This document shows positions 1,583-21,025 of a stretch of DNA of 43,154 nucleotides, piece after piece. The position numbers and the translations under genes are program-made. The notes under the pieces were generated by a model. That model did not search any database. It was given only the letters and a program-made list of their open reading frames with translations, and had not been told where the DNA came from. How positions within the stretch are numbered: position 1 is the stretch's first letter; the number at the start of each line of letters is the position of its first letter. This stretch comes from a virus. Where the stretch lies: the IMG/VR virus record IMGVR_UViG_3300047471_000916, positions 1 through 43,154 of that record; one strand, 5' to 3'.

Positions 1583-2088
1583 GCGCCGTCCCGCACCTTC
1601 GATCCGTCGATCCCGAGACCGGCGAGGTCCACGAGCACTGCCCGCAATGCAAAGCCAAGCAGGACACGCTCGATACGTTGACCCACAAATACCATGCTGC
1701 CTGCGCGGAGATCACCAGGCTCAAACGCGATCCACAAGCCGAGGCTGAGAAGCACCAGCTTTATGGCGAGGCCGAGGCGGTGCACATCTGGTGGCGGCTG
1801 GCGACCTGGCATCCGGCGACGAAGTTCGAGCACGTCGAGTTCTACCAAGCGCTGCCGAGGCTGAAAGAACGTGGCCCGGTCGAGCTGCTGAAGGCGGTCG
1901 CGGGCGCTGCTTTTGACCCCGGCAGTCGGACGCTGAAGAACGGTGAGGTCGAAACCTATGACGACTGGGAGCTGATTTGCCGCTCCAAGACCAAGTGCGA
2001 CAGCTTCTCCCGCCGCGTCTACGGCTCTCCGCGGACCGAAAAATGGAAACGCTGGCTCTTGGATCGGATCGAAGGCCAGTTCAAATGA
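1579..2088 (+). CDS. Hypothetical protein with a CxxC motif
   Basis: A 169-residue protein starting at GTG 1579, which overlaps the stop of the previous gene by 4 bases. A CPQC pair lies near residue 20, followed by a helix (LTHKYHAACAEITRLKRD) and then a Trp- and aromatic-rich globular part. The C-terminus is basic (KWKRWLLDRIEGQFK). No family is recognised. The CPQC plus the later Cys residues (CAEI, ICRSKTKC) could hold a metal, but the spacing is not a standard motif. Confidence 0.6.
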   Translation: MSAVPHLRSVDPETGEVHEHCPQCKAKQDTLDTLTHKYHAACAEITRLKRDPQAEAEKHQLYGEAEAVHIWWRLATWHPATKFEHVEFYQALPRLKERGPVELLKAVAGAAFDPGSRTLKNGEVETYDDWELICRSKTKCDSFSRRVYGSPRTEKWKRWLLDRIEGQFK

Positions 2089-2101
2089 GCGGCAGCCTGG
2101 A

Positions 2102-2130
2102 TTGACGCGCGGCAACGGCTCCGGTAGCCT
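2102..2130 (+). promoter_or_regulatory. Sigma-70-type promoter with the shared operator-like box
   Basis: TTGACG (2102-2107), a 17-base spacer and TAGCCT (2125-2130). The -35 and following bases form TTGACGCGCGGCAA, the 14-bp near-palindrome found at six promoters here. The GTG start lies 7 bases after the -10, so the transcript is probably leaderless. The gene it drives encodes an HTH-like protein, so autoregulation is possible. Confidence 0.75.
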
Positions 2131-2137
2131 TCGCCGC

Positions 2138-2380
2138 GTGAAGGAGCCGACTCAACCGGGCACCCTCGCGGGCCGAGTCCAGGTCCGCCGGATCCTCGAC
2201 GAAGCCGCCCGCGCCAACGGCAGGTCGGTATCCAAGCAGTGGGCCTGGAACATCGAACGCGAGCCCGACTTCCCGGCGCCGCTCGACAAGCTCGACGACG
2301 GTCACGGCCGCAAAGTGCCGATCTATGCCCGGCACCAGATCGAGGGCTATGCGAAGCGGCGCTCGGCGGCGAGAGCCTGA
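2138..2380 (+). CDS. Small AlpA/excisionase-like HTH protein
   Basis: An 80-residue protein starting at GTG 2138. The stretch from RRILDEAARANGRSVSK (about 13-29) through WNIEREPDFPAPL (about 32-44) to GRKVPIYARHQIEGYAKRR (about 52-70) has the layout of AlpA/MerR-type winged helix domains: helix-turn-helix, then a 'wing' with PDFPAPL, then a Y-x-x-x-x-I-x-x-Y/W helix. Such proteins act as DNA-binding regulators or excisionases. It follows directly the operator-type promoter, so it could be the regulator that binds that box; this is inference. Confidence 0.6.
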   Translation: MKEPTQPGTLAGRVQVRRILDEAARANGRSVSKQWAWNIEREPDFPAPLDKLDDGHGRKVPIYARHQIEGYAKRRSAARA

Positions 2381-2447
2381 CCCCGGAAGTCCCCTCAGAA
2401 GCCCTCAGCGGCCCCCAGAGGCCCCGGGAGGCCCGCGAGTAGGTCAT

Positions 2448-2789
2448 ATGCCCGCCGGCGACTGGAACGACCGACACCGCGCCCCCTGCCCGCTCTGCGG
2501 CGCTCCGATGAGGGCGGGGTCGGCCAAGCCCTCCCGTCGACCGGCCTGCTGCTTGGAATGCCGTCACCTGGCCCGCGCCGAAGCACGCGACCGCCGGGCG
2601 GTGCTGATCGAGGCGCTCTGGGCCGAAGGGCTGACCCAGAGCCAGATCGGCGAGGCGCTGGGCTGGGGCCGGGGGACGGTCGCCCGCGAGGTGCACCGGC
2701 TGCGAGCGCTCGGCTACGCGCTCCCCTTCCGCCGCGACGGCGCCACGCGGCTCGAATATGAGCTGAGCCGTGTCCCCGCGGGGTCCTAG
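2448..2789 (+). CDS. Zinc-ribbon plus helix-turn-helix DNA-binding protein
   Basis: A 113-residue protein. The ATG at 2448 is chosen because the sequence upstream in frame is Pro/Arg-rich and overlaps the previous gene. The N-terminus has CPLC (about 15-18) and CCLEC (about 34-38), a likely zinc ribbon. Next come a basic helix and a classical HTH, EGLTQSQIGEALGWGRGTVAREVHRL (broken here as EGLTQSQIGEALGWG then RGTVAREVHRL, about 60-85), like sigma region 4 or AsnC-type HTHs. It probably binds DNA as a regulator. Its stop codon forms part of the next gene's -10. Confidence 0.65.
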   Translation: MPAGDWNDRHRAPCPLCGAPMRAGSAKPSRRPACCLECRHLARAEARDRRAVLIEALWAEGLTQSQIGEALGWGRGTVAREVHRLRALGYALPFRRDGATRLEYELSRVPAGS

Positions 2790-2792
2790 GCT
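2787..2792 (+). promoter_or_regulatory. -10 element (TAGGCT) for a leaderless gene
   Basis: TAGGCT ends 7 bases before the GTG at 2800, with no Shine-Dalgarno sequence between. It overlaps the stop codon of the upstream HTH gene. Confidence 0.5.
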
Positions 2793-2799
2793 TCTCGCC

Positions 2800-3177
2800 G
2801 TGGAGTCCAAGGAATGCACCTGCTGCGGCGCGGTCAAGTCGGTCGAGGACTTCTACGCCGAACCGCGGCGACGCGGCGGACGTCGCTCGGAGTGCAAGCG
2901 CTGCTCGAACGGCTCCTACACCCCGCACTGCACCGAGTGCGGCGAGCCGACGCGGCGGGCCGGTCTCTGCGGCTTCTGCGCCGAGGAAGGAAGCGGTGGG
3001 CCCCTGATCGCGCCGTTCGAGCCGCCGGCGCCGCCCGGCACCCACGAGAACCGGCTGCGCCTCGCCGTGCAGCGGGCCGGTGAGGCCAGACCGGACTATG
3101 GCGGGGGAGTGAAGGGGGCCGAAACCCGCAAGGCGCGTGGCGCTCGGCCGGGCTACGTGACCGCGGCGGGGTTCTGA
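2800..3177 (+). CDS. Protein with two Cys4 zinc ribbons
   Basis: A 125-residue protein. The GTG at 2800 is preferred over an ATG 30 bases upstream because TAGGCT sits 7 bases before it. The first ribbon is CTCCGAVKSVEDFY then CKRC (about 6-36), a layout shared with the N-termini of many phage HNH/endonuclease VII-type proteins. The second is CTEC then CGFC (about 44-62). The C-terminal half is Pro/Gly-rich and basic with no nuclease motif. It may bind nucleic acid. It is the last gene before a 400-base non-coding stretch and a terminator. Confidence 0.6.
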   Translation: MESKECTCCGAVKSVEDFYAEPRRRGGRRSECKRCSNGSYTPHCTECGEPTRRAGLCGFCAEEGSGGPLIAPFEPPAPPGTHENRLRLAVQRAGEARPDYGGGVKGAETRKARGARPGYVTAAGF

Positions 3178-3586
3178 GGTTCGTTCTCCCCCATAGGTCT
3201 GCCTATCCTCGGCATCCCTAACCCACCTTCTAGGCGAGCCTGCCCCCCCAACGTCGAGACCTCGGAGGGCAGCGGGTCATCTTCGCCTCCTGAGCAGATC
3301 GACAGTGAGGTCCTCGGCGTCCGAGTTCAGCGACTTCCGGGCCAGGGGAGCATCTGCGCTTGCGCTTCTCGGCCTCCCCGGTCGGTCGCCTAGCTTGCCG
3401 TAGCGGACGGGCTTTTCCTCCCGACGCTGCTCGCGGGGCGTTGTCGAAGTCCCCGGTGGGGGGCGGCCGCCGGTCAACGCGGTAGAGTGCGGAATCGGTA
3501 GTCGATACCGGGCAGCCTATAGCTGCAGGCGGACCCCCTCTCTGACGCATCCCGTTCGGAGAGGGGGTTTTGTCGTTCCGGGGCCG
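3178..3586. other. Non-coding stretch ending in a terminator; possible small RNA
   Basis: About 400 bases without a convincing gene. Minus-strand ORFs here are Arg/Pro-rich and lack start signals. On the plus strand a TAGAGT (3483-3488) and a TAG/GATACC cluster (3499-3509) could be -10 elements, and an intrinsic terminator follows at 3534-3571. A short transcript of roughly 70-90 bases could therefore be made, but no known RNA family is recognised. Confidence 0.35.
3534..3571 (+). terminator. Rho-independent terminator
   Basis: CCCCCTCTC (3534-3542) pairs perfectly with GAGAGGGGG (3559-3567), followed by TTTT. It would end plus-strand transcription from the zinc-ribbon operon or from a short RNA just upstream. 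The reverse direction lacks a T-run. Confidence 0.8.
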
Positions 3587-3811
3587 TTAAAACGGCAGCC
3601 CGAGGATCCGCGCCGCGCCGAATCCCAGCCCGGCCGCGACGCACACGGCCCAGGGAGCGACGCGACGCCGTCGGCTCCGCACCCCGTGCACCGCGCAGCC
3701 GGGGTCCAGCCGCGTTTCGCAGGTGCAGTAGACCCGCCCCAGCTCGCCGGGGGTGCGGCCAGTCAGATCGGGATGGTGGGGGCGGCCGGGGCCGGAGCGG
3801 GGAAGGGTCAT
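3587..3811 (-). CDS. Small membrane protein with a Cys-rich segment
   Basis: A 74-residue minus-strand protein starting at ATG 3811, placed 8 bases after the -10 of a minus-strand promoter. The middle has CTCETRLDPGCAVHG (about 30-44), with three Cys and a His in metal-ligand spacing. Then come basic residues (RSRRRR) and a C-terminal hydrophobic segment, WAVCVAAGLGFGAARILGLPF split as WAVCVAAGLGF and GAARILGLPF (about 54-74), which would span a membrane. Function is unknown. It is divergent from the next small membrane gene and shares its promoter region. Confidence 0.6.
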   Translation of the reverse strand: MTLPRSGPGRPHHPDLTGRTPGELGRVYCTCETRLDPGCAVHGVRSRRRRVAPWAVCVAAGLGFGAARILGLPF

Positions 3812-3819
3812 CGGTGGAC

Positions 3820-3848
3820 AGCGTCCCACAATCCTTGCCGCGCGTCAA
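3820..3848 (-). promoter_or_regulatory. Minus-strand promoter with the shared operator-like box
   Basis: On the minus strand, TTGACG (3848-3843), a 17-base spacer and GACGCT (3825-3820), which is a weak -10. The 14-bp box TTGACGCGCGGCAA is intact (3848-3835). The ATG of the minus-strand gene lies 8 bases after the -10, so the mRNA is probably leaderless. Confidence 0.6.
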
Positions 3849-3855
3849 TTCCTGA

Positions 3856-3861
3856 TACCGT
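3856..3861 (+). promoter_or_regulatory. -10 element (TACCGT) for a leaderless gene
   Basis: TACCGT ends 8 bases before the ATG at 3870. The operator-like box of the divergent promoter lies just upstream, so a protein bound there could affect both directions. Confidence 0.4.
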
Positions 3862-3869
3862 CCAGCCTC

Positions 3870-4004
3870 ATGATCCTGCTCGTCGTCATAGTCGCCTTCG
3901 CCCTGATCGGCGGCGGTATCGCGGGAAGCCTCGGGGCCGGAGTCGGGCTGCTGGCCGGGCTCGTCATCGGCGGCTTCGTTCAGGGCCGACTCGACCAGCC
4001 GTGA
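3870..4004 (+). CDS. Tiny glycine-rich membrane protein
   Basis: A 44-residue protein that is almost wholly hydrophobic: an N-terminal helix (ILLVVIVAFALIGGG) and a second Gly-rich segment (VGLLAGLVIGGFVQG), ending in RLDQP. One or two membrane spans are likely, with GxxxG-type packing. There is no signal-peptide cleavage site. Its stop overlaps the GTG of the next gene. Function is unknown. Confidence 0.55.
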   Translation: MILLVVIVAFALIGGGIAGSLGAGVGLLAGLVIGGFVQGRLDQP

Positions 4005-4198
4005 CCCGCAAGCAGGGCATCGCCACCGCCTACGGAGTCGCCGCCAAGTGGCGGACCGGAGAGAAGCTCGGCCGCACCCTCTATGCCCAGCTCGGCGATG
4101 AGCCCTCGCCCGCCGATCCCTTCCTCGGCATCATGGAGACCCCGGCGCTGGCCCGCCACGTCGTCTCTGCCATGAACGCGCTTCGGGAGAAGGAGTGA
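4001..4198 (+). CDS. Hypothetical protein
   Basis: A 65-residue soluble protein starting at GTG 4001 by overlap (GTGA) with the previous stop. It is basic at the start (VTRKQGIATAYGVAAKWRTGEKLGRTLY) and ends in a helix (ALARHVVSAMNALREKE). No family is recognised. It lies in a tightly overlapping three-gene run. Confidence 0.5.
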   Translation: MTRKQGIATAYGVAAKWRTGEKLGRTLYAQLGDEPSPADPFLGIMETPALARHVVSAMNALREKE

Positions 4199-5817: not shown

Positions 5818-5987
5818 GCGACAGGTTCTGCGAGGACTGCGGGGTAGCGATTCACGTTGAGAATGAGGGCGTGATGTTCAGCGCCGACGGCGAGCACTAC
5901 ATCTGTCCCGAATGCGCTCCGAAGTATGAGCACATTTTCCCGCCGAGGGGGTGGGATACGACGCGCGGATGCTGGGTGACCTCGTGA
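5814..5987 (+). CDS. Small zinc-ribbon protein
   Basis: A 57-residue protein starting at GTG 5814 by GTGA overlap with the previous stop. CEDCG (about 6-10) and CPEC (about 34-37) are spaced as a Cys4 ribbon, with a short hairpin between (IHVENEGVMFSADGEHYI). It is the third zinc-ribbon gene in 800 bases. Confidence 0.6.
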   Translation: MSDRFCEDCGVAIHVENEGVMFSADGEHYICPECAPKYEHIFPPRGWDTTRGCWVTS

Positions 5988-6271
5988 TTGAGCCGCCGAT
6001 CCACCACCTGCGCGCCCTGCGCGAGCGCCTGGTCCGCGACGGCCGGGTCGAGTTCCACAACGGCTCCGTGGTCAGCGTCGAGCACGGCACCGACCTGCGG
6101 ATCACCTGGCCCGGCACCGATATCTACGGCTACGTCAACCAGTGGGCATACGAGCAGCTCGGGCGGGCCTACGAGCTGGCTCTCGCCGGCCGGCCGCCGG
6201 TCGCGATCGAGCCGGTGCGGCGGCCCAAGCGCCAGCCGCCCAGACGGGACTTCGGCAGCGTGCCCTTCTAG
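5984..6271 (+). CDS. Hypothetical protein
   Basis: A 95-residue protein. The GTG at 5984 overlaps the previous stop and is preferred over an ATG 33 bases upstream inside that gene. A helix (IHHLRALRERLVRDG) is followed by beta strands (VEFHNGSVVSVEHGTDLRI is broken here at Gly), a second helix (YEQLGRAYELALAG) and a basic, Pro-rich tail. No family is recognised. Confidence 0.55.
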   Translation: MIEPPIHHLRALRERLVRDGRVEFHNGSVVSVEHGTDLRITWPGTDIYGYVNQWAYEQLGRAYELALAGRPPVAIEPVRRPKRQPPRRDFGSVPF

Positions 6272-6294
6272 ATTCGGCTCGGCCCGATAAGCGA

Positions 6295-6300
6295 TAGGGT
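6295..6300 (+). promoter_or_regulatory. -10 element (TAGGGT) before the methyltransferase gene
   Basis: TAGGGT ends 13 bases before the ATG at 6314, leaving room for only a few leader bases. No Shine-Dalgarno match is seen. A -35 is not obvious. Confidence 0.35.
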
Positions 6301-6313
6301 CGGGCGCCGAGAG

Positions 6314-7321
6314 ATGCACGCTCCCGACGCCCACGAGCAGACTAGCCGAGCCGAGTTCGACTTCGGCCCCGGCCTGCGCCGCGAGCAGCGCATCGACGAC
6401 GCCGAGGGCGAGGCCATCCGCGAGCGCTGGGAGATCGGCCGCTGGATGCTCGGTCATGTCCCCGAGGGCAAGAAGAAGCTGCCCGACGGCTTCCTGGCCG
6501 GATACGCGAAGGCGAGCGGCAAGAGCCGCACCGAGCTTCAGTACCGCAAGCAGCTCGCGGAGCGATACCCGGATGCCGATGCATTGTCCAACGCGTTGGA
6601 CAATCACCCGTCCTGGCACGAGGTCGTCAACGAGCTGCTGTCCGAAAAGAGCACCCGCTACGCCGAGAACGCCGCCGGAGCGCACGAGGGCGTCGAGACC
6701 AGCGAAGCCGATGCCGAGGGCGATGACTGGAAGCTCTTGTTGGGCCGCTTCCAGGACCGGCTCGCCGACATCCCGGCGGGCAGCGTCACGGCAATCGTCA
6801 CCGATCCGCCCTATGGCGAAGAACACTTGCCCGAGTGGGAAGCGCTGGGCCACATGGCTCCCGAGCTGCTGGTGCCGGGCGGCGTGCTGTTGGCCCGCTG
6901 CGGGCATCTGTTGCTGCCCCGCTACATCGATGCGCTCGGCGCCGGCGGGCTTCAGTTCGGCTGGCTTTACGCCGAGCCGCTGCCCGGCTCCAACGTGCGC
7001 TTCCAGGGCCGCAAGATCGCCGTCTCCTGGCAGCCCTGGCTGGCCTTCAGCAACGGCCCCTGGCCGAGCGGGCGGATCGACTGGCATCCCGACACGCTCA
7101 CCGAGTCGCCCCGGACCAAGGCCCGCTTCGTCTGGGAGCAGAAGTGGGATGTCGCCGCCGAGCTGACCCAGACCTTCGCATCGCCGGGGGCGCTGGTGCT
7201 CGACCCCTTCGCCGGATCGGGGTCCTATGGGGAGGCGGCGCTCGCGGTCGGCTGTAGATGGGTCGGGGTCGAGGCCGATCCGGCAGGTCACGCCGCTGCT
7301 GCTGGGCGGCTCGCGGGATGA
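6314..7321 (+). CDS. DNA methyltransferase (DPPY type) with N-terminal KorB/ParB-like part
   Basis: Likely methylates adenine N6 or cytosine N4 in DNA using S-adenosylmethionine. In the 335-residue protein, the catalytic motif IV DPPY lies at 164-167 and the SAM-binding motif I DPFAGSGS at 297-304, the order of beta-class methyltransferases. Between them is a single short target-recognition region (about 200-280). The first 120 residues are helical and charged (ERWEIGRWMLGH, then DGFLAGYAKASGKSRTELQYRKQLAERYP) and look like an HTH of the kind fused to phage methyltransferases. The gene overlaps the following nuclease-like gene by 4 bases. It could protect phage DNA from restriction. Confidence 0.85.
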   Translation: MHAPDAHEQTSRAEFDFGPGLRREQRIDDAEGEAIRERWEIGRWMLGHVPEGKKKLPDGFLAGYAKASGKSRTELQYRKQLAERYPDADALSNALDNHPSWHEVVNELLSEKSTRYAENAAGAHEGVETSEADAEGDDWKLLLGRFQDRLADIPAGSVTAIVTDPPYGEEHLPEWEALGHMAPELLVPGGVLLARCGHLLLPRYIDALGAGGLQFGWLYAEPLPGSNVRFQGRKIAVSWQPWLAFSNGPWPSGRIDWHPDTLTESPRTKARFVWEQKWDVAAELTQTFASPGALVLDPFAGSGSYGEAALAVGCRWVGVEADPAGHAAAAGRLAG

Positions 7322-7812
7322 CCGGCTTCGCCGAGCGCGATAAGGACCATGCCGAGCATCTGGAACGGGTCCGTCGGGCCTTGCATGCACGCGGGTTCGA
7401 GGTCGAGGATGCTGGCTGGGAGCGACGCCCCGAAGCCGAGCGCCAAGAGCTGATCGAGCAGTGGCCGAAAGCGTTGTGGCGCTGGTGGCCCGATCTGCTC
7501 GCCACACGCGGTCCCTTCGGCCGCATGCTCGTGGACGCGAAGGCGGAGCTGCGCGATGACACCGCGAACTACTCAATCGAGCTGGCGGCGCTGGCCTTGT
7601 ACGCGATGATCGAGGCACGGATGCGAACGGCGGTTGTAGTGGTCTTCCCCGGCGGCGCTTGCGATTACGCTCGCGATCTGAACCCGGTCAGCGTCCAGAC
7701 GCGGGGCAATGGCGGGTCCGGCACGGCCTTCGTCTTGGTCCGCAAGGATTCGTTGCGGACCTTCGAGCAGGTTTTCGGTCCGGTTGAGGCGGAGGGCGGC
7801 GCCGCCTCGTGA
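7318..7812 (+). CDS. PD-(D/E)XK-like nuclease
   Basis: A 164-residue protein starting at ATG 7318 by overlap with the methyltransferase stop. The core reads WWPDLLATRGPFGRMLVDAKAE: D59, then D73-A-K75 on a predicted strand, followed by a helix (NYSIELAALALYAMIEA) and a strand (TAVVVVF). This matches the PD-(D/E)XK nuclease core, where D59, D73 and K75 would be the metal and catalytic residues. Such small proteins may act as Holliday-junction or restriction-type endonucleases. Its coupling to a methyltransferase gene raises the possibility of a restriction-modification pair; this is inference. Confidence 0.55.
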   Translation: MTGFAERDKDHAEHLERVRRALHARGFEVEDAGWERRPEAERQELIEQWPKALWRWWPDLLATRGPFGRMLVDAKAELRDDTANYSIELAALALYAMIEARMRTAVVVVFPGGACDYARDLNPVSVQTRGNGGSGTAFVLVRKDSLRTFEQVFGPVEAEGGAAS

Positions 7813-15365: not shown

Positions 15366-15799
15366 TGGCCTGGGTAGAGGATCGCTACTCGCTTCCCTTC
15401 AAGGCCGCATCGGTGATGCCGCCGCGCACCGTCGTCGCGCTCGACACGGTCAACGGCCAGGTCATCCCCCTCACCAACGCTTCCCAGCGTCCCTACGGGA
15501 TCACCCAGGCATCGGGCGCTTCGCCCGGCCTCTCGGTCGCGGTCTTCGAAGCCCCCGGAGTCGCCAAAGCAATCGCGGCGGCCTCGCTCGGGCACGGCGC
15601 GGAGGTCTCGCTCGCCTCGATCGGTGTGGCATCGGCGGCGCAGTCCAACTCGCTCGCCACCACCACCCTGCTCGGGCCGAAATCGGCCGCCGCCTCGGGC
15701 ACCACGCAATGGTCGGTCGGCGTCGCGCTGACCCCGGCTCTCGCCGGAGAGATTTTCTCGGTCAAGCTCGAACCACGGCAGGTGAGCGGCCTTGTCTAG
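15365..15799 (+). CDS. Head decoration protein (DUF2190-like)
   Basis: A 144-residue, Ala/Ser-rich, beta-structured protein starting at ATG 15365 (TGATG). Its pattern, FKAASVMPPRTVVALDTVNG, then PYGITQASGASPG and KAIAAASLGHGAEVSLASIG, is that of the DUF2190/lambda gpD-like capsid cement proteins: a beta barrel that trims and stabilises the shell after expansion. It sits between the scaffold and the major capsid gene, the usual place. It overlaps the next gene by 8 bases. Confidence 0.75.
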   Translation: MAWVEDRYSLPFKAASVMPPRTVVALDTVNGQVIPLTNASQRPYGITQASGASPGLSVAVFEAPGVAKAIAAASLGHGAEVSLASIGVASAAQSNSLATTTLLGPKSAAASGTTQWSVGVALTPALAGEIFSVKLEPRQVSGLV

Positions 15800-16817
15800 G
15801 ATTCTCGACCACCCCGAGCTGCTGCACCAGCGGGTGGACACCGAGGCGTTCGCCGACGCGCGCGGCGCGGCCGGGCTTCAGGTCATCGACCCGCTGCTGA
15901 CCAACGTCGCCCGCCGCTACATGGCGCACGGCTTCATCTATGACCAGCTCGTCGCCCGCCAGCCGGTGCAGACGATCTCCGGCCAGTACCCGACCTTCCC
16001 CAAGTACTACTGGTTCGCCCAGATCGCCGACAACTCGATCGAGGACCGCACCGAAACCAAAGAGGTCGGCTTCGAGTGGTCCACCGAGCACTACAACGCG
16101 AAGAAGTACGGCCTGAAAGTCTCGATCTCCGACGACGAGCGCGCCAACGCCGCTCCTGCCCTGCGCCTAGAGCAGAACAAGACCGAACTGCTCGACCTCC
16201 AGCAGGCCCTTGCCCGCGAGATTCGCCTCGCCACCAAGCTGCGCGAAACCGGCGTCGCCGGCGGCGAAATCGCGGCCGAAAACGAAGCCGCAGCGGCGAA
16301 AAAATGGTCCAGCTCGGAATCCAACCCCGAGGCCGACCTCCGCGCCGCCGCGCTCAAGGTCTACGAACAGATCGGCTACAACCCAAACACGCTGATCCTG
16401 CCCTACCCGGTGGCCTACAACCTCGCCACCGTGCACGGCACCGACACCTTCCGCAACCAGATGCTCTACACGGTCAACGGCCAGGAGATGATCCGGCTCG
16501 GCGACGGCATCCTGCCCGCGCAGATCCATGGCATGAAAGTCATCATCCCGCGCGGCTCGCAGAAGATCGTCGCCAACGAGCCCGGCGCGACCGCCACCGC
16601 GGAAGAGATCTGGGGCAAAAACGCGATTCTCGCCTACATCGACCCCTCCGCCGGATGGGGCACTCCAAGCCTGATCTACGGCTTCCAGTTCATGGCCCCG
16701 ACCGTCGCGCGCTGGCAGCGCATCGATCCCGATGTCGAGTACATCCGCGAGATGGAACGGGTTGATGAGAAGGTGGTCGCGCCCAACGCCGGGTACGTCA
16801 TCAAGGAATGCCTCTAG
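15792..16817 (+). CDS. Major capsid protein
   Basis: A 341-residue protein assigned as the HK97-fold shell subunit by position, size and content. The start is TTG 15792, overlapping the decoration gene by 8 bases; a GTG at 15834 is an alternative. There is an N-arm (LHQRVDTEAFADARGAAGLQ), an extended loop (YPTFPKYYWFAQIADNS), a long helix (NKTELLDLQQALAREIRLATKL) and a C-terminal beta region (WGTPSLIYGFQFMAPTV). The Glu/Ala-rich stretch near 160-175 may be an inserted loop. No cleavage site can be named. No Mu gpT similarity is claimed. Confidence 0.8.
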   Translation: MSRILDHPELLHQRVDTEAFADARGAAGLQVIDPLLTNVARRYMAHGFIYDQLVARQPVQTISGQYPTFPKYYWFAQIADNSIEDRTETKEVGFEWSTEHYNAKKYGLKVSISDDERANAAPALRLEQNKTELLDLQQALAREIRLATKLRETGVAGGEIAAENEAAAAKKWSSSESNPEADLRAAALKVYEQIGYNPNTLILPYPVAYNLATVHGTDTFRNQMLYTVNGQEMIRLGDGILPAQIHGMKVIIPRGSQKIVANEPGATATAEEIWGKNAILAYIDPSAGWGTPSLIYGFQFMAPTVARWQRIDPDVEYIREMERVDEKVVAPNAGYVIKECL

Positions 16818-17071: not shown

Positions 17072-17188
17072 GTGACGAAGCTGCCTCATGCAGAAGTGAG
17101 TCGCGGGGGCCTTGCGGCTTTCAGCGCTCGGCGCTTCCCGCTCGGGCTTAAACGATCAACCTCATGGCGAGACGCCCCGCGTGACTGA
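17072..17188 (+). CDS. Possible 38-residue leader ORF
   Basis: A short ORF from GTG 17072, 8 bases after TAGATT. The product is basic (SARRFPLGLKRSTSWRDAPRD) and unlike any known protein. It overlaps the glycosyltransferase GTG at 17181 by 8 bases, so it may serve only to couple translation. It may also be chance. Confidence 0.3.
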   Translation: MTKLPHAEVSRGGLAAFSARRFPLGLKRSTSWRDAPRD

Positions 17189-19766
17189 GTCCTTCGCCCG
17201 CGAGGACGGCCTGCCGACAATCGGCCTCGCCCTGATCGCCAAAAACGAGGCCGAGACTCTGCCGCGGCTGCTCGATTCGGTGGGCTGGACAGAGCAGCCA
17301 CTCAACACCGAGAAGCATTCGGCGGGAATGGGCTTGGGTCAGATCCGCACCGAGGCAGCCGTGGATTATGTGGTGCTTGCCGACACCGGTTCGACCGACG
17401 AGACCAAAGCGATAGCGCTGGCGCGGGGCTGCCAGGTCATCGAGACGCCCTGGACCGACAATTTCGCCGAGGCCCGCCAAGCCTCCTATGACGCTCTACC
17501 CGACTGGATCAACCTCTCGCTCTGGGCAGATGCCGACGATCTGATCGAGGGTGCCGAGAAGCTGCGCCAGCTCGGCGCGATGGTGATGTCGAACCCCGGC
17601 ATTAGCGGCACCCTGCACCGCTACAACTATGCTCGCGACGACGCCGGGAATACGGTCTGCGAGCTTTGGCGCGAGCGCCTGGTCCGCTACAACCATGGCG
17701 AGAAATGGATGCTGCCAGTGCACGAGGTGCTGCAAGTCCCCGGCGCCCTGGTCCACGTCGATGACGGCATCTGGCACCACCACCAGCCGCCCGAGCGAGA
17801 GCGCGATCCCGAGCGCAACTACAAGATCCTGCGCCGCAGCCACGAAGCGGCGACCGCCGCCAAGGAGCAGCCCGACCTGCGCACCGTCGCCTACCTCGGC
17901 ACCGAGGCATTGGGCCTGGGACGGCCTAAGGAGGCCGTGGAGCTGTTCAAGGACTATCTGAGCCGCCAGGACCCCAATGCATCCGAGGAGCGCTGTCAGA
18001 TCGCCCACAAGCTCTCGATAGCGCTCAGAGCGCTACGCGAGGGCGAGAAGGAGGTCCCGCCCCAGCGGATCGAGGAATCGATCGAGGCCGGTCACCTGGC
18101 CGTCCACGAGCGCCCCGACTGGCCCGATGGCTACATCGACCTTGCCGAGCTCAGCCTGCGCCGGGAGGAACCCGAGCGGGCGCTGTGGTTCTGCGAGCAG
18201 GCGCTGGCCCGCGAGACGCCGAAGACGCTACTAATCATCAACCCGCTGGAGTACCACTACCAGCCGCTGCTGATGCGCTCGGTCGCGCTGGCGAAGCTGG
18301 GCCGGGTCGAGGAAGCCTTCGACGCGACCCAGGCCGCCCTTCAGATCACCCCCTACCGCGACGACCTCAAATCCCAGGCGGGGATGGTCGGCGAGCAGTT
18401 GAAGCGCAAGCAGACGGTCGAAACGGTGCTCCAGTTGCGCGAGACGCTGATCCGCCATGACGAGAACCTGAAGGCGAACGCGCTGATGCGAGACGCCGTG
18501 CCCTACTTCGTCGCCAACGACCCGGCGGTGGCTCAAGCTCGGTTGGACAGCCGCGAGATGACGCTTCACGCAGCCGACCCGGCGCTCTATGGCTCCTATT
18601 ACCGAGAGAATCCGGGCGAGACACCCTTCGAGGCCCAGGGCATCCCGGTCGCCGAGGCGCACGAGCACTTCCACCGGGTCAAGTTCCTGCGCGAGGGGCT
18701 GGACAAGTATGCGGCCGAGCGCGGCAGCTTCGATGTCGGCGAGTCGATCGCGGTCAAGAGCGATCTGCGGATTCTCGACATGTCAGCCAACGACGGCTGG
18801 ATGCTGGCCAATCTCGCCGGCGCCGGCTATGGCACCCAGGGGACCCTCTCGGGCATGGACCTCAATCGGGATGCGGTGGAGCGCGCCCAGAAACGCCTAG
18901 CGGAAGTCAGCGGTGAAGTCATCTGCGACGACCTGCACAAGGCGGCGGAGCACTTCGAACCCGAATCCTTCGATGCCGTAGCCCTCTTTGAGACCTTGGA
19001 GCACACGCCGGATCCGACCGCGACTCTCGACGCGATGGCCCGCATGGTCAAGCCCGGCGGCCTCTGCTTCCTCAGCACACCCTGCGGCGCATATGAGAAC
19101 GGCAACGTCCCCGGCTGGGCCACGGTCGAGTCCAAGGGCCACCTGCGGGCGATGACCCCGGCGGAAGTCTCGGGGTTGCTCGCCGAGCGCGGCAAGATCA
19201 CCGCGATGGAGACCGAGCAGCGGCTGATCGTCGCCTCGATGCAGCCCCGCCCGCGGAAGGGCAAGATCGTCTTCTTCGCCGGTCCCGCCGACTGCCGTCC
19301 CGAGCAGATCACCGAGACGGGACTGGGAGGCTCTGAGACGGCGCTGTGCAAGATGGCCGAGCACTTCGCGCGCCGCGGCTACGTGGTCAAGGTCTTCGCC
19401 GGAGAAGGCGGCGGAGCGCGCGGGGACCACTGGACGGTCGAAGGAAAGCACGAGGAGGGCGAGGTCCTCTACGAGCCCTGGACCGCCTGGGACCCCGGCG
19501 AGCGCTGCGATCTGTTCGTCTCGCTGCGCATCCCGGAGGCATTCGACCGCACGATCAACGCCGAGCGCCGCCTGCTCTGGCTGCACGATGCCGACTACGG
19601 CGACCGCCTCACCGAGCAGCGGGCCTCGCGCGCCACCCACATCGCCGTGCTCTCCGACTTCCACCGCGAGATCATGGTCGAGCGCTACCCCTGGATCGAG
19701 GATAAGGTCTTCCTGACGCGGAACGGGATCGAGACGAGCTACTTCGAGGAGAAAGTCGAGGCGTGA
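17181..19766 (+). CDS. Multidomain GT2-TPR-methyltransferase-GT4(N) protein
   Basis: An 861-residue protein (GTG 17181 chosen; an ATG at 17112 lies upstream in poorer sequence). Domain 1 (about 10-220) is a family 2 glycosyltransferase: IGLALIAKNEAETLPRLLDS, DTGSTDET (68-75) and the DAD-type WADADDL (115-121). Domain 2 (about 240-440) is helical with TPR-like units (GRPKEAVELFKDYL, DGYIDLAELSLRREEPERAL). Domain 3 (about 500-680) is a class I methyltransferase with motif I ILDMSANDGWML (531-542) and FETLEHTPDP. Domain 4 (about 694-861) is the N-terminal Rossmann domain of a GT4/GT-B enzyme (GLGGSETALCKMAEHFARRG, LWLHDADYG, VFLTRNGIETSYF). It stops where the second GT-B domain should begin. It lies in the head module, so virion proteins are possible targets. 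Confidence 0.8.
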   Translation: MTESFAREDGLPTIGLALIAKNEAETLPRLLDSVGWTEQPLNTEKHSAGMGLGQIRTEAAVDYVVLADTGSTDETKAIALARGCQVIETPWTDNFAEARQASYDALPDWINLSLWADADDLIEGAEKLRQLGAMVMSNPGISGTLHRYNYARDDAGNTVCELWRERLVRYNHGEKWMLPVHEVLQVPGALVHVDDGIWHHHQPPERERDPERNYKILRRSHEAATAAKEQPDLRTVAYLGTEALGLGRPKEAVELFKDYLSRQDPNASEERCQIAHKLSIALRALREGEKEVPPQRIEESIEAGHLAVHERPDWPDGYIDLAELSLRREEPERALWFCEQALARETPKTLLIINPLEYHYQPLLMRSVALAKLGRVEEAFDATQAALQITPYRDDLKSQAGMVGEQLKRKQTVETVLQLRETLIRHDENLKANALMRDAVPYFVANDPAVAQARLDSREMTLHAADPALYGSYYRENPGETPFEAQGIPVAEAHEHFHRVKFLREGLDKYAAERGSFDVGESIAVKSDLRILDMSANDGWMLANLAGAGYGTQGTLSGMDLNRDAVERAQKRLAEVSGEVICDDLHKAAEHFEPESFDAVALFETLEHTPDPTATLDAMARMVKPGGLCFLSTPCGAYENGNVPGWATVESKGHLRAMTPAEVSGLLAERGKITAMETEQRLIVASMQPRPRKGKIVFFAGPADCRPEQITETGLGGSETALCKMAEHFARRGYVVKVFAGEGGGARGDHWTVEGKHEEGEVLYEPWTAWDPGERCDLFVSLRIPEAFDRTINAERRLLWLHDADYGDRLTEQRASRATHIAVLSDFHREIMVERYPWIEDKVFLTRNGIETSYFEEKVEA

Positions 19767-20041
19767 ACGCTAATCCGGATGAGAGACGCGCCGCGACGCA
19801 GCTCTATGTCGGAGGAGCGACCTTCTGGGTCTTGGAAGAGTACGAGGAAGTCTCGGCGCTCTTGCGAGACATTGAATTCGGCAAGCAAGGCCGCCCGGCC
19901 TTCCAGGAGTTCATGATGCAGGGAGAGAGGGTAATCGCTCCGGTCACCCTCTACCTACCTGCCATTCTGGCAGCGATTCCTATCCCGCTCGAAGCGAGGC
20001 GGAGCATCTCAGAGTTGCGAGAGGAGCGGGAGAATGCCTGA
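19763..20041 (+). CDS. Small protein lodged between two halves of a GT-B enzyme
   Basis: A 92-residue protein starting at GTG 19763 (GTGA overlap). Residues 14-60 (LYVGGATFWVLEEYEEVSALL, split at 34) follow the pattern of small beta proteins with G-G-x(3-6)-E-x-x-E-E-[VI] and a later x-G-x-x-V-x-x-x-x-x-x-x-I. A similar pattern is seen in the gene at 20687. It is not a glycosyltransferase. It interrupts two ORFs that look like the N- and C-terminal domains of one GT4 enzyme. The next gene starts inside it with a good ribosome-binding site (GAGGAG). Confidence 0.5.
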   Translation: MNANPDERRAATQLYVGGATFWVLEEYEEVSALLRDIEFGKQGRPAFQEFMMQGERVIAPVTLYLPAILAAIPIPLEARRSISELREERENA

Positions 20042-20690
20042 TCCCCAGCGCAAGCCCTGGCTCGTCTACTCTTCCTCGCCCGATCGCGGCCTCGACGTGC
20101 TCTTGGAGATGTGGCCCAGCATCCGCGAGCAGGCCCAGGCGGCGGGGATCAAGAAGCCCGAGCTGCACTTCGCCTACTCGCCGATCTACTTCACCTTCCG
20201 CGACTCCGGCGCCTTCCCGCATCTCAAGGACTTCCACGCGAAGCTGGAGCGCTTGGAACAGGAGGCGGGCGAGGGACTGGTCAACCACGGCTCGCTCAGC
20301 CAGCCCGAGCTGGCGAAGCTCTACCGCGAAGCGATGATCTGGTCTTACCCGAGCTGGTCCTCGCCGAGCGCCGCTGCCTTCCCGGAGATTTTCTGTCTCT
20401 CCGCGGCAGAGGCCCAGGCTGCCGGCTGTATTCCGGTGACGCTGGACTACGGGGCGCTGAAGGAGACCGTCTTCGGCGGAGATCGACTGGAGCCGCAGGT
20501 CGCCAACGGCAAGCTGAGCCTGGAGTGGCGCGAGCGCTTCGTCGCCGCCTGCGTGCACTATCTGAGCGACCGCGAGGCGCGGGTCGATGCTCGAAGGAAC
20601 TGCCAAGAGAAAGCGCTGGCTCTCGATTGGCTCGGGGTCTGTGACCAATGGGAGCTAGAGTTGCTTACCAAGGGTAAGGTCGCGGCATGA
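20034..20690 (+). CDS. Second Rossmann domain of a GT4 glycosyltransferase
   Basis: A 218-residue protein with ATG 20034 and GAGGAG upstream. It begins where a GT-B second domain would: LVYSSSPDRGLDVLLEMWPS (about 9-28). It continues with a helix-rich part, GSLSQPELAKLYREAMIWSYPS (split here at Ser, about 83-104), and the nucleotide-sugar-binding region FPEIFCLSAAEAQAAGCIPV (about 114-133), which follows the family's E-x(7)-E-type pattern. On its own it lacks an acceptor domain, so it probably works with the C-terminus of the 861-residue protein, either as a split enzyme or by association. Confidence 0.7.
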   Translation: MPDPQRKPWLVYSSSPDRGLDVLLEMWPSIREQAQAAGIKKPELHFAYSPIYFTFRDSGAFPHLKDFHAKLERLEQEAGEGLVNHGSLSQPELAKLYREAMIWSYPSWSSPSAAAFPEIFCLSAAEAQAAGCIPVTLDYGALKETVFGGDRLEPQVANGKLSLEWRERFVAACVHYLSDREARVDARRNCQEKALALDWLGVCDQWELELLTKGKVAA

Positions 20691-21025
20691 ACCGGCCCAA
20701 GGCGGTTGTCCACCTGCGGACCACGGGCGGCTTCATGATCGCCGAGGAGCGCCGGGAGATTCTGTCCCGCATCGCCGCCGGGCGCTCCCAGGAGGCAGAG
20801 TTCCTCACCCTGCACGGGATCACCTTCGAGGGTCACGAGATGACGGTCTCGGTTCGCATCGACGAGGTCGCCACCGTGCAAGAGCTGGGGGAGGAGCGCT
20901 GGCAGTTCGAGCTGGACAGCTTCATGCGCAGCGCCGCTGCCAAGGACGCCGACACGGAGATGAAAGCGAGCTGGGCGAAGTTCGGCGAGCAGGCGACGCG
21001 GGAAATGGGCAGTGAGGGTGACTGA
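20687..21025 (+). CDS. Small FlbD-like beta protein
   Basis: A 112-residue protein starting at ATG 20687 (ATGA overlap). The N-terminal 65 residues (VVHLRTTGGFMIAEERREIL, then GITFEGHEMTVSVRIDEVATV) have the layout of a common phage family of small beta proteins that resemble FlbD. The C-terminal part is a charged helix. The role is unknown; the same pattern occurs in the gene at 19763. Confidence 0.5.
   Translation: MNRPKAVVHLRTTGGFMIAEERREILSRIAAGRSQEAEFLTLHGITFEGHEMTVSVRIDEVATVQELGEERWQFELDSFMRSAAAKDADTEMKASWAKFGEQATREMGSEGD

Follow-up and report, generated by a model that had tools for sequence, protein, structure and literature searches.

Can a glycosyltransferase whose gene has been cut in two by another gene still be made, as two chains, and still work? 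The question is raised by an operon of an uncultured virus known from a record of 43,154 bases (the whole stretch of DNA analysed here, hereafter the window), which by gene content, including a tape-measure gene, is a tailed phage. Its genes are ordered terminase, portal, protease, scaffold, major capsid protein, glycosyltransferase operon, neck protein and tape measure, and within the operon the two lobes of a GT-B glycosyltransferase are encoded on separate open reading frames (ORFs) with a small ORF between them. The relevant features are as follows.

15792 to 16817, plus strand: major capsid protein gene (phrog_1005, E 4.6e-48), upstream of the glycosyltransferase operon and given for context only.
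17112 to 19766, plus strand: N-chain ORF, with a GT2-like domain, a TPR-like region, a SAM methyltransferase and the GT-B N lobe (family matches; phrog_13126).
19254 to 19745, plus strand: GT-B N lobe inside the N chain, with GGSE, HD and NG motifs retained (lobe profile and conserved-residue comparison).
19758 to 20042, plus strand: inserted segment of 285 nt (95 codons), placed by the hinge of L006 (EKAPQQKKPWVV) and of L005, two unsplit relatives, with limits of plus or minus about one codon.
19763 to 20041, plus strand: 92-residue ORF with a GTG start, atypical codon use for the genome and no known family or homologue found.
20021 to 20026, plus strand: Shine-Dalgarno-like GAGGAG, 7 nt 5' of the C-chain ATG.
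20034 to 20690, plus strand: C-chain ORF of 218 residues, the donor-binding GT-B C lobe with SSPDRGLD and EX7E (E118...E126), whose ATG overlaps the stop of the small ORF.

A first-pass annotation, made from the letters of this DNA, had described a glycosyltransferase split by an unrelated gene and joined by coding overlaps, and its coordinates all hold on the sequence: the GTG of the 92-residue ORF overlaps the N-chain stop (TGA at 19764–19766) to give GTGA at 19763, and the ATG at 20034 overlaps the stop of the small ORF (ATGCCTGA), with GAGGAG lying ahead of it. The 861 residues assigned to the N chain are the length counted from a GTG at 17181; the ORF itself runs for 884 residues from a TTG at 17112. 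It ends in ...RNGIETSYFEEKVEA, eleven residues beyond the NGI motif that closes the N lobe, and about eight residues of the C ORF precede the first strand of the C lobe. The N and C ORFs share one frame, and three in-frame stops separate them. Family matches within the N chain are to the GT2 family (residues 43–172), Methyltransf_23 (549–694) and Glyco_transf_4 (739–809). Directly after the C chain lies a 112-residue ORF (20687–21025) that is absent at that place in the relatives L004 and L005 and has no family assignment (DUF5335, E 0.006, is under the cut-off).

By sequence and predicted fold the enzyme is of the GT4 type. It has two predicted Rossmann-like lobes and an EX7E motif in the C lobe, and its best matches are GT4 enzymes, with no assignment to the MurG/Alg13-14 family. 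Glyco_transf_4 and Glyco_trans_1_4/Glycos_transf_1 match with E of about 1e-5, slightly under gathering scores, and a profile built from 54 homologues matches GT4 enzymes in the PDB with E 2e-12. For structure prediction, AlphaFold2 was given a read-through of the three stops, solely to hold both lobes in one chain, together with 53 unsplit homologues; both lobes were predicted with a pLDDT of about 97, the read-through segment (188–275) was disordered, and the pTM of 0.79 is near the maximum possible at about 20% disorder, which indicates that the lobes pack as one GT-B. Folding the halves together, a check that the first-pass annotation had proposed, thus gives in this one-chain form a single confident GT-B; the model speaks to the compatibility of the halves and does not imply that they meet in the cell. 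A Foldseek search of the PDB placed MshA first (3c4q, E 1.3e-13), followed by glycogen synthase and sucrose-phosphate synthase, all of them retaining GT-B enzymes. By model and profile the phage enzyme resembles MshA in fold, EX7E motif and two-lobe layout, but MshA is one chain whereas the phage enzyme is predicted to be two.

Both lobes have kept the residues conserved in the family and look functional. The window retains GGSE, R, HD and NG in the N lobe and S, R and the first glutamate in the C lobe, and its EX7E is complete (E118-IFCLSAA-E126); in L001 and L002 the second glutamate is a lysine. At columns conserved in at least 88% of unsplit members, the N lobe has one mismatch (W to C, lobe position 14) and the C lobe two (P to Q and I to L), and there are no stops or frameshifts inside either lobe. 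Nearly all split relatives likewise have their conserved residues in both lobes. The window's C lobe is 48% identical to those of its sisters, compared with 52–56% among the sisters themselves, and the N lobe shows no such drop; the lower identity of the C lobe could reflect mild relaxation.

Comparison with relatives shows that the extra DNA is an insertion. The nearest relatives, L004, L005 and L006, are unsplit in the GT-B part and share about 60–65% identity with the window in the N lobe and 48% in the C lobe; L004 and L005 each encode one protein, of 1026 and 1006 residues respectively, and throughout the unsplit relatives both parts share an ORF and are joined by a hinge a few residues long. 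A carefully built tree of 71 rows makes the window sister to three unsplit proteins with support of 100/100. The sequence ...NGIETRWYEKAPQQKKPWVVYSSSPDRGLD of L006 aligns to ...NGIETSYFEEKV in the window, there followed by EA and the stop, and then, after the MPD that opens the C chain, to PQRKPWLVYSSSPDRGLD; the ancestral linker is therefore fully retained, and the extra DNA comprises the 285 nt from 19758 to 20042. The site is cleanly interrupted, and unsplit relatives exist. Alignment to them places the junction where it had been proposed to lie, at the GT-B hinge between the N and C lobes. It also bears out the second ORF as a true C lobe (46–47% identity to its counterpart in unsplit relatives, with EX7E retained) and not a protein of a different family, and the C ORF has not been lost in split relatives.

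The insert differs in composition from its surroundings, with a G+C content of 0.60 versus 0.67 for the window. The 92-residue ORF has a coding score of +0.25 bits per codon, compared with -0.85 and -0.90 for the other two forward frames, its GC1/2/3 values are 0.65/0.43/0.71, and when the insert is shuffled by a Markov model an open frame of the same length arises with a probability of 0.064. Its preference for codons typical of the genome is 0.008, as against 0.33–0.49 for the neighbouring genes; a value so near zero would be a mark of recent arrival, and the insert appears, judging from these statistics, to be coding but foreign in composition. The small gene had been described as lacking glycosyltransferase features, and we detected no Pfam, PHROG or NCBIfam match for it and no homologue among viral contigs, phages, plasmids, seven related virus records or PDB sequences. 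Predicted alone, the protein folds with low confidence (pLDDT 55). Nor is it a duplicate of the neighbouring ORF at 20687–21025, to which it has no similarity. The insert carries no signature of a homing-type nuclease (HNH, GIY-YIG or LAGLIDADG) and no promoter or terminator pattern, and a search of its flanks for a target-site duplication gave just short, chance-level repeats. The window is one metagenomic contig, and we found no second phage with its insert.

The split itself is not peculiar to this phage. Loci were pooled from several searches; profiles served to find the N and C lobes, each pair was examined for a shared ORF, and both halves were required to lie within 4–5 kb. The final set holds 194 N/C-lobe pairs, 28 split and 166 unsplit. 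Seven apparent splits (L221, L265, L201, L102, L104, L111 and L073) were dropped, as their N ORF continues past the hinge and the distant C match resembles another glycosyltransferase. For these pairs the split label needs 7 changes of state, at least 6 of them forced; on the 71-row tree it needs 8, at least 7 forced by supported branches (bootstrap range 7–8). Because some of these changes may be re-fusions, we limit the claim to what the trees then suggest, at least about five independent splits. These are the window, L155, L203, the group of L016, L039, L082, L075 and L167, and one or more in the group of L002, L070, L134 and L194. The start and stop points of split members all fall at the same hinge; since the search sees just those splits that lie between the lobe profiles, we make no claim that the hinge is hit preferentially. 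The upstream module lies mostly on the ORF of the N lobe, a median of 421 residues ahead of it. The architecture of L016 is a swapped two-chain one: its C lobe, on a chain of its own (5986–7503), is joined to a second GT2 domain, so in that clade the halves are separate gene products. The split pair of L167 (4211–6573), joined by an ATGA overlap, is on a contig that is binned as Micrarchaeota and is probably viral.

What lies between the halves varies from group to group. In L155 and L203 it is an HNH endonuclease, the two being 39% identical to each other and of two lineages, and each starts in the stop codon that follows NGI immediately or after two residues. The L203 enzyme (3405–4010), which has clear NUMOD3 motifs, ends in WHRDNVSKLPEEKVFITSNGL, a second copy, in register, of the tail of the glycosyltransferase N lobe (WHRENIDHVLREKIFVTSNGI); this repeated tail makes up its last two dozen residues, and the endonuclease seems to have brought with it a fragment of another glycosyltransferase gene. 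In a clade of ten members the halves are separated by a full-length GroEL gene (about 520 residues; L002 2913–4481, L031 4452–6014, L054 2232–3803 and seven further split members), sometimes with small ORFs in addition. GroEL is absent from the fetched DNA of the unsplit relatives L076, L187, L193 and L197, which fits GroEL insertion as the cause of that split. L070 and L085 have a DNA methylase (in L070 an N6_N4_Mtase at 2031–3287) with two small ORFs, a similar and related small-ORF pair stands alone in L189, L192, L195 and L196, and L194 has one ORF of 43 residues. There is no intervening gene in L016, L039, L134, L167 and L278, where the halves overlap by a few bases. Three proteins, L055, L045 and L066, are unsplit and carry an in-frame extension at the same hinge, which in L055 is zinc-ribbon-like (CPNCG...CERCG).

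These observations bear on whether two chains are made at all and whether they work. If the insert were removed or skipped, as a small intron, by translational bypass or by readthrough, one full-length enzyme would result; the shared frame of the N and C ORFs would permit this, the insert RNA is predicted to fold mildly more stably than shuffles (z -1.9), and this hinge is the site, in L155 and L203, of homing endonucleases, which often partner introns. A shared frame, however, has a one in three chance, and in many split relatives the N and C ORFs are out of frame. Neither the window nor L155 has a match to an Rfam intron family at gathering or permissive thresholds, the group I and II cores of self-splicing introns included. 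What the insert does hold is an ORF that looks like a gene, set in a different frame and furnished with overlaps of its own; a good Shine-Dalgarno sequence precedes the C ORF, and readthrough would be blocked by the three stops. We regard removal or bypass as very improbable. That the enzyme was recently disrupted and is dead, with the C ORF in the course of being lost, would be in keeping with an insert that looks newly acquired (low GC3, codon bias near zero) and is found in no second phage, and with the slightly lower conservation of the C lobe than in its sisters. We consider recent disruption improbable, since catalytic and conserved residues are present in both ORFs, the lobes are free of stops and frameshifts, the start/stop overlaps are tidy and accompanied by a Shine-Dalgarno sequence, and parallel splits elsewhere have persisted across long divergence: long-lived split clades retain both halves, and the C lobes of the GroEL clade are about 75–81% identical to one another.

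Two further readings accept separate chains and differ in what the chains do. The C ORF might act apart from the N chain, as a stand-alone nucleotide-sugar binder or with another partner, much as the C lobe of the L016 clade begins a new protein with a GT2 domain; yet the GT-B active-site residues of the N lobe are equally conserved in split members, and the N and C genes lie close together in every split found, the search having required both within 4–5 kb, and we hold this to be very improbable. A role for the middle protein as a working part of the enzyme, either a third subunit or an assembly factor, is suggested by its predicted translation between the halves and by the chaperonin gene so placed in one clade, where GroEL could act in that way. 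The inserted genes are mutually unrelated, however (the 92-residue orphan, HNH endonucleases, GroEL, a DNA methylase and small ORFs), five split loci have no gene between the halves, and the 92-residue protein is without a confident fold or a homologue in the collections searched. Such a role is quite improbable for the window; any part for its middle protein in the enzyme is unsupported, and the protein is most likely a passenger.

We therefore favour, as the probable explanation, a working two-chain GT4 enzyme created by insertion of a gene into a linker that tolerates loss of the covalent connection, the halves reassembling. The starting point would have been a GT4-type GT-B glycosyltransferase, fused as in close relatives to an upstream GT2-TPR-methyltransferase module, whose flexible linker between the Rossmann lobes was entered by a foreign segment of 285 nt with one small gene. 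The GTGA overlap, followed by the Shine-Dalgarno sequence and the second stop/start overlap, would let translation pass from ORF to ORF. The products would be an N chain bearing the GT2 and methyltransferase domains and the acceptor lobe, the unrelated 92-residue protein and a C chain with the nucleotide-sugar lobe; the two lobes would then most likely come together as a functional GT-B with no covalent linker between them. We infer that all three ORFs are translated and that the separate chains assemble and are active.

There are precedents for the reassembly of separate chains. According to PMC2988022, insertion of mobE into nrdA of Aeromonas phage Aeh1 gave a ribonucleotide reductase encoded by genes in pieces, T4 gene 60/39 with mobA and gp43A/43B of phage 25 are likewise divided, and separate chains of NrdA and gp43 have been shown to yield active enzyme, as summarised there. 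The window shares with these a phage enzyme gene cut into two ORFs by the insertion of another gene, but their agent is a homing endonuclease, whereas the window's insert encodes a 92-residue protein without a nuclease signature, and the gene cut is that of a GT4-type glycosyltransferase, at its lobe boundary. L155 and L203, whose hinge does hold an HNH endonuclease, come close to belonging fully to the Aeh1 class. Alg14/Alg13 and the bacterial EpsE/EpsF are GT-B enzymes whose acceptor and donor lobes are separate chains, parted at the lobe boundary; they belong to a MurG-related family with one inferred ancient split, and re-fusions have also been reported (PMC8993221). The window resembles them in having its lobes on separate genes split at the hinge, and differs in being of GT4 type, in a phage, with several independent splits in its family and unrelated genes between the halves.

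A literature search of partial coverage found no description of a split GT-B in phages, and, if the favoured reading holds, this would be to our knowledge the first phage glycosyltransferase of GT4 type to function as two chains after a gene was inserted. Nature seems to have run in this family, several times over, the experiment of cutting one enzyme at one place; the prediction that follows is for GT4 enzymes to be able to function as two separately made lobes, and the family offers many independent pairs for testing split-enzyme reassembly. The hinge, in a gene of a virion operon, can take up an insert of the size of GroEL. Annotation of phages will overlook one half of such enzymes, because the C halves are short ORFs that match weakly. 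A bolder idea, which we consider unlikely, is that the hinge is a standing landing site for genes, at which homing endonucleases cut near the conserved NGI codons, two chains are tolerated, cargo such as GroEL, the methylase and small proteins like that of the window accumulates, and the product in between is in some lines co-opted for assembly or regulation.

As to what the enzyme acts on, we tentatively infer that it glycosylates components of the virion or of the host. Glycosylation of virion proteins has been suggested for a mycobacteriophage carrying two glycosyltransferases (PMC11256854). Among the 174 loci with enough upstream sequence, 92 have a capsid-protein homologue at most 4 kb upstream, a proximity that would fit glycosylation of virion proteins.
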